From Lachnospiraceae bacterium UBA6452 (GTDB lineage: Bacteria > Bacillota > Clostridia > Lachnospirales > Lachnospiraceae), in assembly GCA_002441865.1 (NCBI GenBank), contig DJNY01000064.1, positions 1 through 6,738 of the forward strand: a DNA stretch of 6,738 nucleotides, in the 5' to 3' direction. The notes under the pieces were generated by a model. That model was given only the letters and a program-made list of their open reading frames with translations, had not been told where the DNA came from and did not search any database. This document shows positions 1 to 5,777 of the stretch, one piece after another (the first letter of the stretch is position 1; each line of letters begins with the position of its first letter). The position numbers and the translations under genes are program-made.

Positions 1-1007
1 CTTTCTTTCCGGTTCAGCTTCGTTCCTGCCACGCTGAGCAGAACACCGATCGTCCGAAATACAAGTGCCCCAAAGATCAGCAGAACTGCCTGCAGTCCTG
101 CACCTAATGTATAGCGGATATCCACAGCAGCACCTACCAGAACAAACAAGATCACCTCTGCTGCCAGCCACAGCTTTCCAAATTTCTCAGACAGCCGCTT
201 TGAGACAAACGCGGTACTTTTCATCCTGATCACACATGCCATGCTGACAACCGCAAGCAGACCGGAAACTGCAACCTTTCCTTCCAGCCAGCCTTCTATC
301 GCAATGAGCAAGAAAGAAAATCCCAGTACAATGATCACTTTCATACTGTTTCTGATGCAATGCTTTTTGGCATATGCCGTTTCAAAAAACAGACAAAGCA
401 AAAAGCCGCAGAAGCCGCCAAGCAGGATCCCCAGCACAATAGAAACCGGAATATTCACAAAATCAAGCACATTGGCGGTTCCGCCCTGCGCCATGCTCAA
501 AAACGTTGTAAACAGCACGATCACAAAAATATCGTCGCAGGAAGCCCCTGCCATGATCATCTGCGGGATTGCTTTTTCGGTTCCGTACTTTCGTTCCATC
601 AGGCTAACCATACGTGGCACAACGACCGCCGGTGAAACTGCTGCCAGAACCGCTCCCATGACTGCTGCCTCAATATGGCTAACACCCAGAAGCACCGGTG
701 CCAGCAGAATATAACCGATGATCTCGCAACTGGCAGGCACAAAAGAAAGCATGATCGCAGATCTGCCTGCTTTTTTCAGATCCTGCAGATCCAACGATAG
801 CCCGGCTTTCAATAAAATAATGATCAGTGCCATCTTTCTAAGTTCCGCGGAAATCCCCAAAATGGAAGGATCTAACAGATCCAGCACATAAGGGCCTAAA
901 ATAATACCGGTTGCCAGCATACCAATGATACGCGGCAGTTTGATCTTCTGGCAGATGGCTCCCATTGCCAGTCCCACCAGAAAAATGAGTGATAACGATG
1001 TCAGCAT
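1..1007 (-). CDS. Cation:proton antiporter (Na+/H+ exchanger family), C-terminus outside window
   Basis: A membrane antiporter expected to exchange H+ for Na+, K+ or another monovalent cation across the cytoplasmic membrane. The frame is open for 335 codons from ATG at 1007 and runs off the window edge, so roughly the last 50-60 residues are missing if it has the usual length near 390. The start is set by AGGAGGAG immediately upstream (1013-1020). The protein is a string of hydrophobic segments with short loops. Diagnostic pieces are LPRIIGMLATGIILGP (residues about 24-39), SPAVVVPRM (about 125-133) and ASCDDI (about 155-160). The last has the paired acids D158-D159 in the position of the ion-binding aspartates of CPA-type exchangers. 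Family membership is well supported by these motifs. Ion specificity cannot be read from sequence. The gene has its own promoter and a structured leader ending in a terminator, which suggests conditional expression separate from the upstream operon. Confidence 0.9.
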   Translation of the reverse strand, partial: MLTSLSLIFLVGLAMGAICQKIKLPRIIGMLATGIILGPYVLDLLDPSILGISAELRKMALIIILLKAGLSLDLQDLKKAGRSAIMLSFVPASCEIIGYILLAPVLLGVSHIEAAVMGAVLAAVSPAVVVPRMVSLMERKYGTEKAIPQMIMAGASCDDIFVIVLFTTFLSMAQGGTANVLDFVNIPVSIVLGILLGGFCGFLLCLFFETAYAKKHCIRNSMKVIIVLGFSFLLIAIEGWLEGKVAVSGLLAVVSMACVIRMKSTAFVSKRLSEKFGKLWLAAEVILFVLVGAAVDIRYTLGAGLQAVLLIFGALVFRTIGVLLSVAGTKLNRKE

Positions 1008-1049
1008 AATTGCTCCTCCTTATTGTTTCCGCAGAAGTTTATCTCAAAT

Positions 1050-1096
1050 AAAAAAGCTGATACTTCTGCGACATAATATCGTAGAAGTCATCAGCT
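1050..1096 (-). terminator. Strong intrinsic terminator / expression platform in antiporter leader
   Basis: Minus-strand hairpin: AGCUGAU (1096-1090) pairs with AUCAGCU (1061-1055). After one bulged G (1089), ACUUCUACGA (1088-1079) pairs with UCGCAGAAGU (1071-1062) apart from one A-C mismatch. The loop is 7 nt. The stem runs straight into a U tract (1055-1050), continuing UAUUU-like. It stops transcription about 43 nt before the antiporter ATG. It can also terminate read-through from the aminotransferase operon, but its 5' arm overlaps the closing stem of the upstream RNA, which favours a regulated role. Confidence 0.85.
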
Positions 1097-1142
1097 CTGT
1101 AAGCAGTTTAGGTTTCCCAAGGGAGAACTTCATTCCCTACGC
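1079..1142 (-). promoter_or_regulatory. Putative riboswitch aptamer in the antiporter leader
   Basis: This is the first ~64 nt of the predicted transcript, between the promoter and the terminator. It can fold with a closing stem CGUAG (1141-1137) with CUACG (1084-1080). Inside are a GGGA/UCCC hairpin (1137-1134 with 1124-1121) and a UUGGG-AAA-CCUAA hairpin (1120-1116 with 1112-1108). A purine-rich, partly unpaired stretch (about 1107-1089) follows. The GGGA helix shares G1137 with the closing stem, so the two adjust at one base pair. The 3' strand of the closing stem lies within the 5' arm of the downstream terminator, so the two folds exclude each other. Compact structured RNA, mutually exclusive terminator and a cation antiporter downstream together indicate a riboswitch whose bound state would permit transcription. 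Na+ (DUF1646/Na+-I) or Li+ (nhaA) classes are hypotheses from gene context. I did not verify a consensus match. Confidence 0.6.
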
Positions 1143-1147
1143 TGTAA

Positions 1148-1176
1148 AATATAACAGCGTTTTATTTCTTTGTCAA
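1148..1176 (-). promoter_or_regulatory. Consensus sigma-A promoter for the antiporter leader
   Basis: On the minus strand a perfect -35 box TTGACA (1171-1176) is followed by a 17-bp spacer and a -10 box TATATT (1148-1153). It is the best promoter in the window. It overlaps the last codons and the stop of the aminotransferase gene, so the antiporter can be transcribed independently. Transcription should start near A1143 or G1142, which puts the 5' end of the RNA directly at the first strand of the leader's closing stem. An inverted repeat (1139-1145 and 1154-1160) surrounds the -10 box. Confidence 0.85.
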
Positions 1177-3901: not shown

Positions 3902-4345
3902 TTATATCAACCTCTGCAAATACACCATATCCACCAATTGTACCCCAGCCTCATATATTGGATGATCATAATGATCTGTAAAAAAACATGGTATAGTATA
4001 CGAACGAACAAAACCACATTTTTCATAAAAAGGTATTGTCAATGGGCTGTCTCCTGTTCCTACTTGCAAAACGGCATATTGTCCTCTGTATTTCTCAATG
4101 ATAAAATCAATCAAGGTCTTTGCATAACCTTTGCCTTGAAGTTCCGGAACTGTTGCAATGTTCTTTATTTCAAGCACATCATTTCCTTCATTTGTAATGA
4201 CACACTCACACTTGATTCCGTTATCATCCAGCACATACATTTTGCCTTTATTCAGATAGCGGTCTATCATATTTTCCTGCTCATCTGCCAATAACAACAG
4301 ATCAAGATATTGCTTTTTATTTTCTGTAACCTCTATGATCTTCAT
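3902..4345 (-). CDS. GNAT family N-acetyltransferase
   Basis: A predicted cytoplasmic acetyl-CoA-dependent N-acetyltransferase of 147 residues, full length for a single-domain GNAT. Acetyl-CoA motif A is clear: IKNIATVPELQGKGYAKTLIDFI (about 60-82), with QGKGYA as the pyrophosphate loop at 70-75. Motif B follows, with IPFYEKCGF at 104-112. The tail DHYDHPIYEAGVQLVDMVYL (124-143) is a pattern I associate with a recurrent uncharacterised clostridial GNAT subgroup. The acceptor substrate is unknown. ATG 4345 is preferred over the adjacent TTG 4348 because AGGAG lies 9 nt before the ATG. That ribosome site is inside the left copy of the 26-bp repeat. Nothing directly downstream looks like a terminator. 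Confidence 0.88.
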   Translation of the reverse strand: MKIIEVTENKKQYLDLLLLADEQENMIDRYLNKGKMYVLDDNGIKCECVITNEGNDVLEIKNIATVPELQGKGYAKTLIDFIIEKYRGQYAVLQVGTGDSPLTIPFYEKCGFVRSYTIPCFFTDHYDHPIYEAGVQLVDMVYLQRLI

Positions 4346-4354
4346 CAATAACCT

Positions 4355-4380
4355 CTCCTAATTTTATCTCTAAGCACCAG
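4355..4380. repeat. 26-bp direct repeat, copy A
   Basis: Identical at 24 of 26 positions to 4735-4760, with an unbroken shared core TATCTCTAAGCACCAG. Copy A supplies the ribosome site of the third GNAT and the stop codon of the small remnant just upstream. The two copies are exactly 380 bp apart and in the same orientation. Confidence 0.85.
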
Positions 4381-4452
4381 TTACACTTAATTTTTTTGTA
4401 TCAGCATCATATAATGGTCCAGAAATGTTTATATCGTTTCAATCTTCATCAT
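4370..4452 (-). pseudogene. Short gene remnant behind the ArsR pseudogene
   Basis: ATG 4452 or 4449 has a good ribosome site (AGGAG at 4458-4462) but encodes only MMKIETI before TAA at 4429-4431. In another frame, coding-like sequence continues as NISGPLYDADTKKLSVTGA and ends with TAG at 4370-4372, within repeat copy A. Removing two bases (a TA) near 4430 would join the two into one 26-residue product. I do not recognise the family. It may be the start of a second gene of the ArsR operon that was cut short and frameshifted. Confidence 0.4.
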
Positions 4453-4498
4453 TTTTACTCCTGTCGGGTAAATCAGATGTAATACTGACCGCCCTTTT

Positions 4499-4726
4499 TT
4501 AAACACCAATCAATAATTCAAAACTTTTCATATCCGGGTCAAAATAATAATAATTTTTTGTTGCTTCCTGTCTCATTTTCAATATTCTCGCATCCTTCAG
4601 AATTTGTAAATGATGAGACACTGCCGGTCTGGACAAATGTGTTTTCTCTGTAATCTCATTTACACGTACTCACCATGTTTCAGGTTATCTACTGCAAATG
4701 TCAAAACCATGGTAATTTTCTCTCAC
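4499..4726 (-). pseudogene. Broken ArsR-family HTH transcriptional regulator
   Basis: ArsR/SmtB proteins are small winged-helix repressors, often metal- or stress-responsive. A perfect ribosome site AGGAGGTGA (4731-4739) precedes GTG 4726, but that frame soon stops. Clear ArsR sequence appears in two pieces. MVLTFAVDNLKHGEY starts at ATG 4710. One base out of frame, VNEITEKTHLSRPAVSHHLQ carries the recognition helix, followed by a wing (LKMRQEATKNYYYF) and TAA at 4499-4501. The junction lies at about 4661-4668, where adding one base (for example a codon CGT between TAC and GTA) restores the reading frame. About 30 residues usually found before MVL are also absent, so there is probably an internal deletion as well. 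It should be non-functional unless the frameshift is a sequencing error; the N-terminal loss would remain. Confidence 0.82.
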
Positions 4727-4734
4727 AAAATCAC

Positions 4735-4760
4735 CTCCTGATTCTATCTCTAAGCACCAG
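4735..4760. repeat. 26-bp direct repeat, copy B
   Basis: Second copy of the repeat at 4355-4380. It lies between the stop of the second GNAT and the start of the broken ArsR gene, and includes part of that gene's AGGAGGTGA ribosome site. The pair brackets exactly the stretch that contains only broken genes. Confidence 0.85.
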
Positions 4761-4769
4761 AATTTAGCA

Positions 4770-5186
4770 TTACTGAACCCGATGATAAATTTTCAATCTT
4801 TGTGCCTCATTTGCCTCAAATCCAAACTTCTCGTAAAATGGAATCTTATCAGGAACTGCACATAACTCCACAAAAATATCTGTACCTTTCACTCCATTGT
4901 CATTTATGAATCTTATTAATTCATTTATTAACATCTTCCCGATACCTTTTCCCTGATATTCAGGTCTGACAACAACGTCCTTAATATAGTAATTAAGTCC
5001 CATATCACCATTCATTCTTGCCATCGCGACAATACAATCTCCATCCCATATAGAAACTCTAAATAAAGTATGCATCATTGCTAACTTTGTCTGTTCAAGT
5101 GACGGTCCATCTCCCCATACCGTTTCCCACAATTCAATAAATTGTTCTGCGGTTAACTCGTTATACTTCACTATAAAATCTGACAT
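4770..5186 (-). CDS. GNAT family N-acetyltransferase
   Basis: A single-domain acetyltransferase of 138 residues. Motif A reads IKDVVVRPEYQGKGIGKMLINELI (about 68-91), with QGKGIG at 78-83 gripping acetyl-CoA pyrophosphate. KIPFYEKFGFE at about 114-124 is motif B. The N-terminal half (ELWETVWGDGPSLEQTKLAM) forms the variable substrate side, so the acceptor is unknown. ATG 5186 follows GGGAG by 11 nt; the in-frame GTG at 5204 lacks a comparable site. The gene overlaps the preceding acetyltransferase by 16 bp, so the two are almost certainly translationally coupled. Only one ribosome-site-sized gap separates it from repeat copy B. The family call is secure; the physiological role is not. Confidence 0.88.
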   Translation of the reverse strand: MSDFIVKYNELTAEQFIELWETVWGDGPSLEQTKLAMMHTLFRVSIWDGDCIVAMARMNGDMGLNYYIKDVVVRPEYQGKGIGKMLINELIRFINDNGVKGTDIFVELCAVPDKIPFYEKFGFEANEAQRLKIYHRVQ

Positions 5187-5728
5187 AATTTCATTTTCTC
5201 CCACTGCTCTTTTGTCATTCTATTTGTATGTCCCACTCTTGTTTCATTGAGCAGTGGCACAGGAACATTTTCACAAGTATGGTGATAAACAAATCCAACC
5301 TTTTCCTGCACTCGTTTCGACTTTTGATTGCCATCATAATAGCCACACCATATGGTACGCATTCCAAGATCCTCAAAGCCGTGACGCAGAATCTCTCTGA
5401 CAGCCTCCGGTACATAGCCTCTGCCCCAGAATGGCTGTCCCAGCCAATAGCCCAGTTCACACTCATCATCCCGGTCTGTCATATCTGTATGCCCGTTCAA
5501 TATCAGTTCGATTGCACCGATAGCTTTCCCATTTTCTTTTTCACAGATAGCATAACTTTCGACACCATTAAGTACATTCCTGATCACTTGCAGACTTTCT
5601 TCCACCGATTTATGTGGCTGCCATCCTGCAATCGGACCAATTTCCGGATTCTTCGCATATTCAAACAGGCTCTCTGCATCCGACTCCTGCCATTTTCTTA
5701 ATAGTAACCGCGCTGTTTCAAGTACCAT
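5171..5728 (-). CDS. RimJ/RimL-type GNAT acetyltransferase
   Basis: A 185-residue acetyltransferase of the branch related to ribosomal-protein N-acetyltransferases RimJ/RimL and to YdaF-like enzymes. It shows the branch's standard parts in order: ETARLLLRKW (4-13), the opening strand; ECELGYWLGQPFWGRGYVPEA (89-109), the acetyl-CoA site with G-R-G; and GNQKSKRVQEKVGF (133-146), the conserved N-x-x-S/R-x-x-E-K-x-G-F block. Being related to Rim enzymes does not prove a ribosomal target; many relatives act on small molecules. ATG 5728 is preferred over ATG 5734 because GGAGG lies 7 nt before the former but only 1 nt before the latter. The gene overlaps the second GNAT and follows the dehydrogenase after about 49 bp without a terminator, so all three probably share one transcript. 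Confidence 0.9.
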   Translation of the reverse strand: MVLETARLLLRKWQESDAESLFEYAKNPEIGPIAGWQPHKSVEESLQVIRNVLNGVESYAICEKENGKAIGAIELILNGHTDMTDRDDECELGYWLGQPFWGRGYVPEAVREILRHGFEDLGMRTIWCGYYDGNQKSKRVQEKVGFVYHHTCENVPVPLLNETRVGHTNRMTKEQWEKMKLCQIL

Positions 5729-5777
5729 TATCATTCCTCCAAATTCCAGAATTTACCCAAGTGTCTGGCTGGGTTAT

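Follow-up and report, generated by a model that had tools for sequence, protein, structure and literature searches.

Background

The closest described systems to the locus reported here are fluoride riboswitches (crcB motif, Rfam family RF01734) that precede genes for cation antiporters. A review gives Na+/H+ antiporters as the commonest riboswitch-associated genes after the fluoride exporters and ties them to pH homeostasis (PMC11139923). In C. difficile, a further paper places an operon behind one fluoride riboswitch; the operon consists of a CLC gene followed by a gene for an antiporter of the NhaP type (PMC11477304). Na+/H+ antiporters are already in print as fluoride-riboswitch targets, and Weinberg 2010 names K+ and Cl- transport genes with crcB RNAs (PMC2864571). 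For the aptamer, a structural account gives the tertiary pairs A6-U38 and A40-U48 in T. petrophila numbering (PMC11586693). For the proteins, published accounts describe the animal-NHA-like CPA2 clade by a DD ion site, an Arg at motif position 8 and a clade-specific Glu, which is E215 in human NHA2 (PMC6181914), and describe exchange by NHA2 as electroneutral (PMC8850199).

We analysed a leader on the minus strand of a window, by which we mean the whole 6,738-nt stretch of Lachnospiraceae DNA given above. Its regulator and the broad kind of its target are those of the fluoride-riboswitch-linked Na+/H+ antiporters already described. The arrangement differs from that in C. difficile, where an NhaP-type antiporter follows a CLC gene, whereas here an antiporter with the marks of the NHA-like CPA2 clade is the first gene after the switch. 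The riboswitch itself is thus ordinary, being a known family before a known target class, and the distribution is the part worth following. What is added here is the set of NHA clade marks in the target, its place behind 39 of 41 riboswitch loci in one family sample, and its near-exclusion with the fluoride channel Fluc. Among the titles and abstract openings listed by searches of open-licence literature, we found no report of an NHA/Fluc exclusion, of the NHA assignment, or of this target prevailing in a single large family of gut bacteria.

Methods

Genome contigs were scanned once for relatives of the antiporter, the query being an alignment of ten close homologues; the best 80 of 220 relatives (70-96% identical) were used. 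The leader alignment, including the window, has 70 rows, 67 of them distinct. Co-occurrence was counted in 200 genomes of Lachnospiraceae (family sample) and 291 genomes of Clostridia (class sample), which have a few genomes in common; over both samples, 106 different genomes carry the antiporter and 92 carry Fluc. In both, an antiporter was called at E <= 1e-40 to P0001, a full-length relative that is 99% identical to the antiporter of the window. 'CLC-F-like' denotes, in the family sample, a PF00654 match below 260 bits; CLC scores in the class sample gave no clean split, so that any CLC was counted there. Counts of antiporter, Fluc and CLC genes may be short where genomes are drafts.

Results

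Locus and promoter

The riboswitch match lies downstream of an aminotransferase gene (1162-2343) and ahead of the ATG, at 1007, of a PF00999 antiporter gene (Table 1). The consensus promoter described ahead of the RNA in an initial annotation of this DNA is confirmed: the two hexamers, with a 17-nt spacer and a TG before the -10, agree with the consensus at 11 of 12 positions. Two promoter-like sites were found in 900-1300 on both strands, compared to 0.8 expected from shuffles. Among the leaders, 57 of 70 carry such a site (at least 9/12) within 80 nt upstream of P1, compared to 11% of shuffles, and a stretch resembling a Shine-Dalgarno sequence is present in all 70.

Two further observations concern the surroundings. 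An inverted repeat (1160-1139) spans the -10 region; the terminator scan reads a plus-strand terminator hairpin there (1139-1160), and the repeat recurs with one mismatch in leader L001. It may be a protein-binding site or a product of chance. Further upstream on the same strand (2354-2887 and 3902-5734) lie genes for three GNAT acetyltransferases and for a protein with a tRNA-editing domain (PF04073); none of them has an obvious connection with fluoride.

Table 1 Features of the leader and the antiporter gene in the window
Feature	Position	Strand	Remarks
-35 hexamer TTGACA	1171..1176	-	lies in the final codons of the aminotransferase gene
Extended -10	1148..1155	-	TG (1155-1154) and TATATT (1153-1148)
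Fluoride riboswitch aptamer (extent of RF01734 match)	1075..1146	-	48.1 bits, E 3.1e-11
P1 hairpin	1121..1137	-	GGGA 1137-1134 with UCCC 1124-1121; loop carries 5' pseudoknot strand GAAGU 1131-1127
Extra hairpin between P1 and P2	1110..1120	-	insertion relative to Rfam consensus
P2 hairpin	1094..1104	-	1104-1101 with 1097-1094; 94.0% of cells paired (67 rows)
3' pseudoknot strand ACUUC	1084..1088	-	shared with 5' terminator arm
Terminator hairpin	1056..1095	-	5' arm 1095-1077, loop 1076-1074, 3' arm 1073-1056; -18.4 kcal/mol
U-tract	1050..1055	-	read from sequence
Shine-Dalgarno AGGAGG	1015..1020	-	read from sequence
Antiporter gene	3..1007	-	PF00999, E 1.3e-35; cut by window edge after 335 aa

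Match to the fluoride riboswitch family

When the window was scanned with the covariance models of 4227 Rfam families, RF01734 was the sole match above its cut-off, at 48.1 bits compared to a gathering cut-off of 34. The structured RNA is therefore real by covariance-model match, which bears out the compact structured RNA of the initial annotation. In thermodynamic folding, the RNA from 1150 to 1040 folds with z = -3.1 (2 of 200 shuffles were equally good), and the aptamer part alone (1142-1080) folds no better than shuffles (z = 0.14), which is unsurprising because the folding program cannot model pseudoknots.

Compared to the family, the window RNA has the score, P1, P2, the pseudoknot, the positions of the tertiary pairs and a terminator overlapping the 3' part in common. 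Window positions 1133, 1093, 1091 and 1083 are invariant in all 70 rows; we take them to be A6-U38 and A40-U48, having carried the numbering over by hand from the T. petrophila RNA and the Rfam consensus. The RNA differs from the family consensus in the hairpin inserted between P1 and P2, a feature that is not confined to antiporter leaders. As a mark specific to antiporter leaders this hairpin was rejected: 11 of 38 antiporter-adjacent hits are shorter than 66 nt and cannot accommodate it, and among the 8 hits next to Fluc, 3 have a length of 71-72 nt.

Conservation of the helices

In the 67 distinct rows P1 is paired in 100% of cells and the pseudoknot in 99.4%. Both hardly vary among leaders, so that their support is conservation and not covariation. 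P2 shows changes on both sides at two of its four pairs. The outer pair of the extra hairpin is CG, AU, UA or GC in 37 of the 67 distinct rows and unpaired in 30, the window being among the 30 and reaching four pairs in a shifted register; judging by the alignment, this hairpin covaries. Taken together, P1, P2, the pseudoknot and the extra hairpin have 95.3% of cells paired compared to 92.7% in shuffles, and 35 double-sided changes compared to 13.2; slid controls of the same helices are 39-66% paired.

The initial annotation had rested the switch on a closing stem (1141-1137 with 1084-1080). Its five pairs can be read in the window, and their conservation fails: all five are present in 4 of 70 leaders and at least four in 11 of 70. 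With 55.8% of cells paired compared to 56.6% in shuffles, the stem was rejected as a conserved element. Its inner pair (1137-1084) also takes bases of P1 and of the pseudoknot. Homologous leaders, on which the initial annotation had staked its reading, thus gave a divided answer: the named pairs fail, and the riboswitch stands because 69 of the best 80 antiporter relatives keep an aptamer between promoter and ATG, as recognised by a regular expression. Among the other 11, one leader has just 33 upstream bases (L037), two hold apparent remnants by eye (L002, L012), and eight show no aptamer (L003, L014, L060, L061, L072, L073, L075 and L076).

Terminator and predicted switch

The hairpin downstream of the aptamer comprises 17 pairs, interrupted by a single bulged base and a single mismatch, and 43 nt separate its U-tract from the ATG. 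Hairpin, U-tract and distance are as first annotated, and the stem, given there as 16 bp, is corrected to the 17 pairs counted here. A general terminator scan of 900-1300 did not list this hairpin, the loop and stem rules of that scan being unsuited to it. In computed folds of all 70 leaders, a downstream hairpin trailed by a T run engages 3-5 of the 5 pseudoknot bases; 69 of these hairpins are at or below -10 kcal/mol, with a median of -21.9. The element that overlaps the terminator in every leader examined is therefore the pseudoknot strand (1088-1084), which would take the role that had been given to the closing stem.

Since the 3' strand of the pseudoknot is also part of the terminator, the two folds are mutually exclusive and ligand should raise expression. 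The same reasoning for an ON direction is given for crcB RNAs by Weinberg 2010 (PMC2864571). In the predicted mechanism, fluoride binding together with Mg2+ would stabilise the pseudoknot, the overlapping terminator would be kept from forming, and the antiporter gene would be read through. Without fluoride, 1095-1077 would leave the aptamer to pair with 1073-1056, and transcription would stop at the U-tract. By its anatomy, then, the leader should switch the gene on in response to fluoride. The direction agrees with that of the initial annotation, and its broader picture of an ion-sensing, terminator-type riboswitch before a cation antiporter stands on family match and anatomy.

A separate observation concerns a nine-base stretch beyond the U-tract. 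Window 1038-1030 (ACTTCTGCG) is an exact complement of 1070-1062 (CGCAGAAGT) in the 3' arm of the terminator. This complementarity is also present in L001, and 28 of 70 leaders have a GCG immediately after the T run. In read-through RNA these nine bases could occupy the free 3' arm.

Antiporter protein

Near-identical listed relatives of the antiporter are about 399 aa long. The best solved relative of P0001 is NHA2 (SLC9B2), with E 3e-39 over residues 23-397, followed by a prokaryotic Na+/H+ antiporter 1 (4czb) with E 6e-8. In human NHA2 numbering, all 116 sequences compared have E215, D278, R432, K460 and T462, and 115 have D279. Seven of the 116 duplicate a locus that is also listed under another id; four copies, partial or interrupted by stops, had been excluded. 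Judged from its sequence, the antiporter hence shows the features by which the animal-NHA-like CPA2 clade is described, namely the Glu, the first Asp and the Arg throughout and the second Asp in all sequences except one. The bacterial protein differs from NHA2 in having no counterpart of its N-terminal part of ~120 residues. A search for relatives among viral contigs confirmed none.

The clade and the conserved ion-site residues predict electroneutral Na+/H+ exchange. By analogy to NHA2, the protein would exchange Na+ (or Li+) for H+, and such exchange would offset the proton load and the shifted ion gradients that follow entry of HF. The benefit is not obvious, since a protein that extrudes H+ would by itself raise internal pH and thereby the accumulation of fluoride.

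Pairing of riboswitch and antiporter

Whole-genome scans of the genomes of the best 80 relatives found a match above the cut-off in 70 (46 of 50 and 24 of 30), mostly one place per genome, with two in G022, G077 and G080. The nearest relative among these genomes, Kineothrix sp. MSJ-39 (G001; Lachnospiraceae, Clostridia), whose antiporter is 96% identical to that of the window, has one fluoride riboswitch and neither a Fluc nor a CLC match.

In the family sample, 41 of 200 genomes have a fluoride riboswitch above the cut-off. The loci lead to the antiporter in 39 of 41 cases, and to a CLC and a Fluc gene in one case each; among the 39, the antiporter starts 1982 nt downstream in L152 and is matched as fragments only in L132 and L136, and L140 and L154 are one locus. 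The class sample has 65 hits above the cut-off, distributed over 56 genomes: an antiporter lies within 400 nt of 38 hits and a Fluc gene within 400 nt of 8, and 19 are near neither, one of these 19 being 425 nt from Fluc (G277).

Discussion

We consider it highly probable that the leader, a member of the fluoride riboswitch family, turns on the gene of an NHA-type cation/proton antiporter as fluoride enters the cell. Observed in its support are the match to RF01734, the helices of the aptamer, the strand shared with the terminator, the family of the gene, and the recurrence of this leader before this gene. Antiporter genomes without the riboswitch speak against it: 22 of 59 in the family sample have none above the cut-off, and in the class sample no riboswitch lies within 400 nt of the antiporter at 14 of 52 places, one of which (G286) has one just below the cut-off.

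A more far-reaching explanation keeps the same riboswitch and makes the antiporter the main fluoride defence, replacing Fluc. The bacterial NHA clade would then serve as a stand-alone defence in Clostridia, either through fluoride-coupled transport or by dissipating, through electroneutral exchange, the pH gradient behind HF accumulation. We regard this as possible yet doubtful. It is suggested by the antiporter being the commonest riboswitch target, by Fluc being nearly never shared, and by about half of the genomes with the antiporter under a riboswitch being without a known fluoride exporter. No genome has both genes in the family sample (59 with antiporter and 41 with Fluc of 200; 12.1 expected) or in the class sample (48 and 52 of 291; 8.6 expected). 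A control pair, CLC-F-like genes and Fluc, overlaps in 20 genomes of the family sample compared to 18.0 expected. The P values of the exclusion, 1.3e-7 (family) and 3.0e-5 (class), treat genomes as independent and overstate the evidence because the genomes are kin; shared ancestry may be the cause of the near-exclusion. Of the genomes with both riboswitch and antiporter, 18 of 37 (family) and 16 of 37 (class) lack Fluc and every kind of CLC, subject to genes that drafts may miss. However, the residues of the protein are of the cation/proton exchanger type, and 3 of the best 80 relatives (G010, G038 and G072) have antiporter and Fluc together. If the NHA antiporter is the survival route of gut Clostridia without Fluc, a common gut group has an uncharacterised fluoride defence, and the role of antiporters in fluoride regulons, so far ascribed to pH homeostasis, becomes testable with one gene in one knock-out.

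It is improbable that the antiporter acts as a helper of the fluoride/proton antiporter CLC-F by removing the protons that CLC-F brings in. The C. difficile operon (PMC11477304) joins a CLC gene to an antiporter behind one riboswitch. Of the best 80 relatives, 49 have a CLC of the lower-scoring, CLC-F-like kind; the one such protein that was checked against solved structures (L093) is closest to the solved CLC-F. Nevertheless, antiporter and CLC-F-like genes occur together in 19 genomes of the family sample compared to 26.0 expected, so that dependence of the antiporter on CLC-F is unsupported there, and antiporter genomes have no CLC at all in 29 of 59 cases (family) and 22 of 48 (class).

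The explanation we prefer, fluoride sensing before an NHA-type antiporter, also has to be weighed against other accounts of the leader itself. Sensing of an alkali or other metal cation, the ligand favoured in the initial annotation, is suggested only by the annotation of the gene as a cation antiporter. The Rfam scan proposed there for Na+ and Li+ motifs was run on 900-1300 and returned RF01734 at E 1.8e-12 instead; no Na+ or Li+ riboswitch family is among the four matches listed at E <= 10, and the other three are far below their own cut-offs. An alkali-ion riboswitch is left without a supporting Rfam match, and we consider cation sensing extremely unlikely. Equally hard to credit is a plain attenuator whose terminator works without ligand, since that terminator, strong as it is by itself, would not need the 27 aptamer columns upstream of it that are invariant in 70 leaders.

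Leaders with two elements

Some leaders carry elements in duplicate. In L030, L035, L045 and L059 a second hairpin with its own T run was seen by eye after the first terminator; two successive terminators may tighten the off state. L154 (436-510 and 571-643; genome G241, contig C21) has tandem fluoride aptamers before the antiporter, at 36.2 and 44.6 bits. Behind the first lie a hairpin resembling a terminator and a T run, and the pseudoknot strand of the second can pair with the Shine-Dalgarno sequence at -6.3 kcal/mol, which is no better than shuffles. The arrangement suggests control first at the level of transcription and then at that of translation. In the class sample, two riboswitch hits lie 28 nt apart in genome G481.
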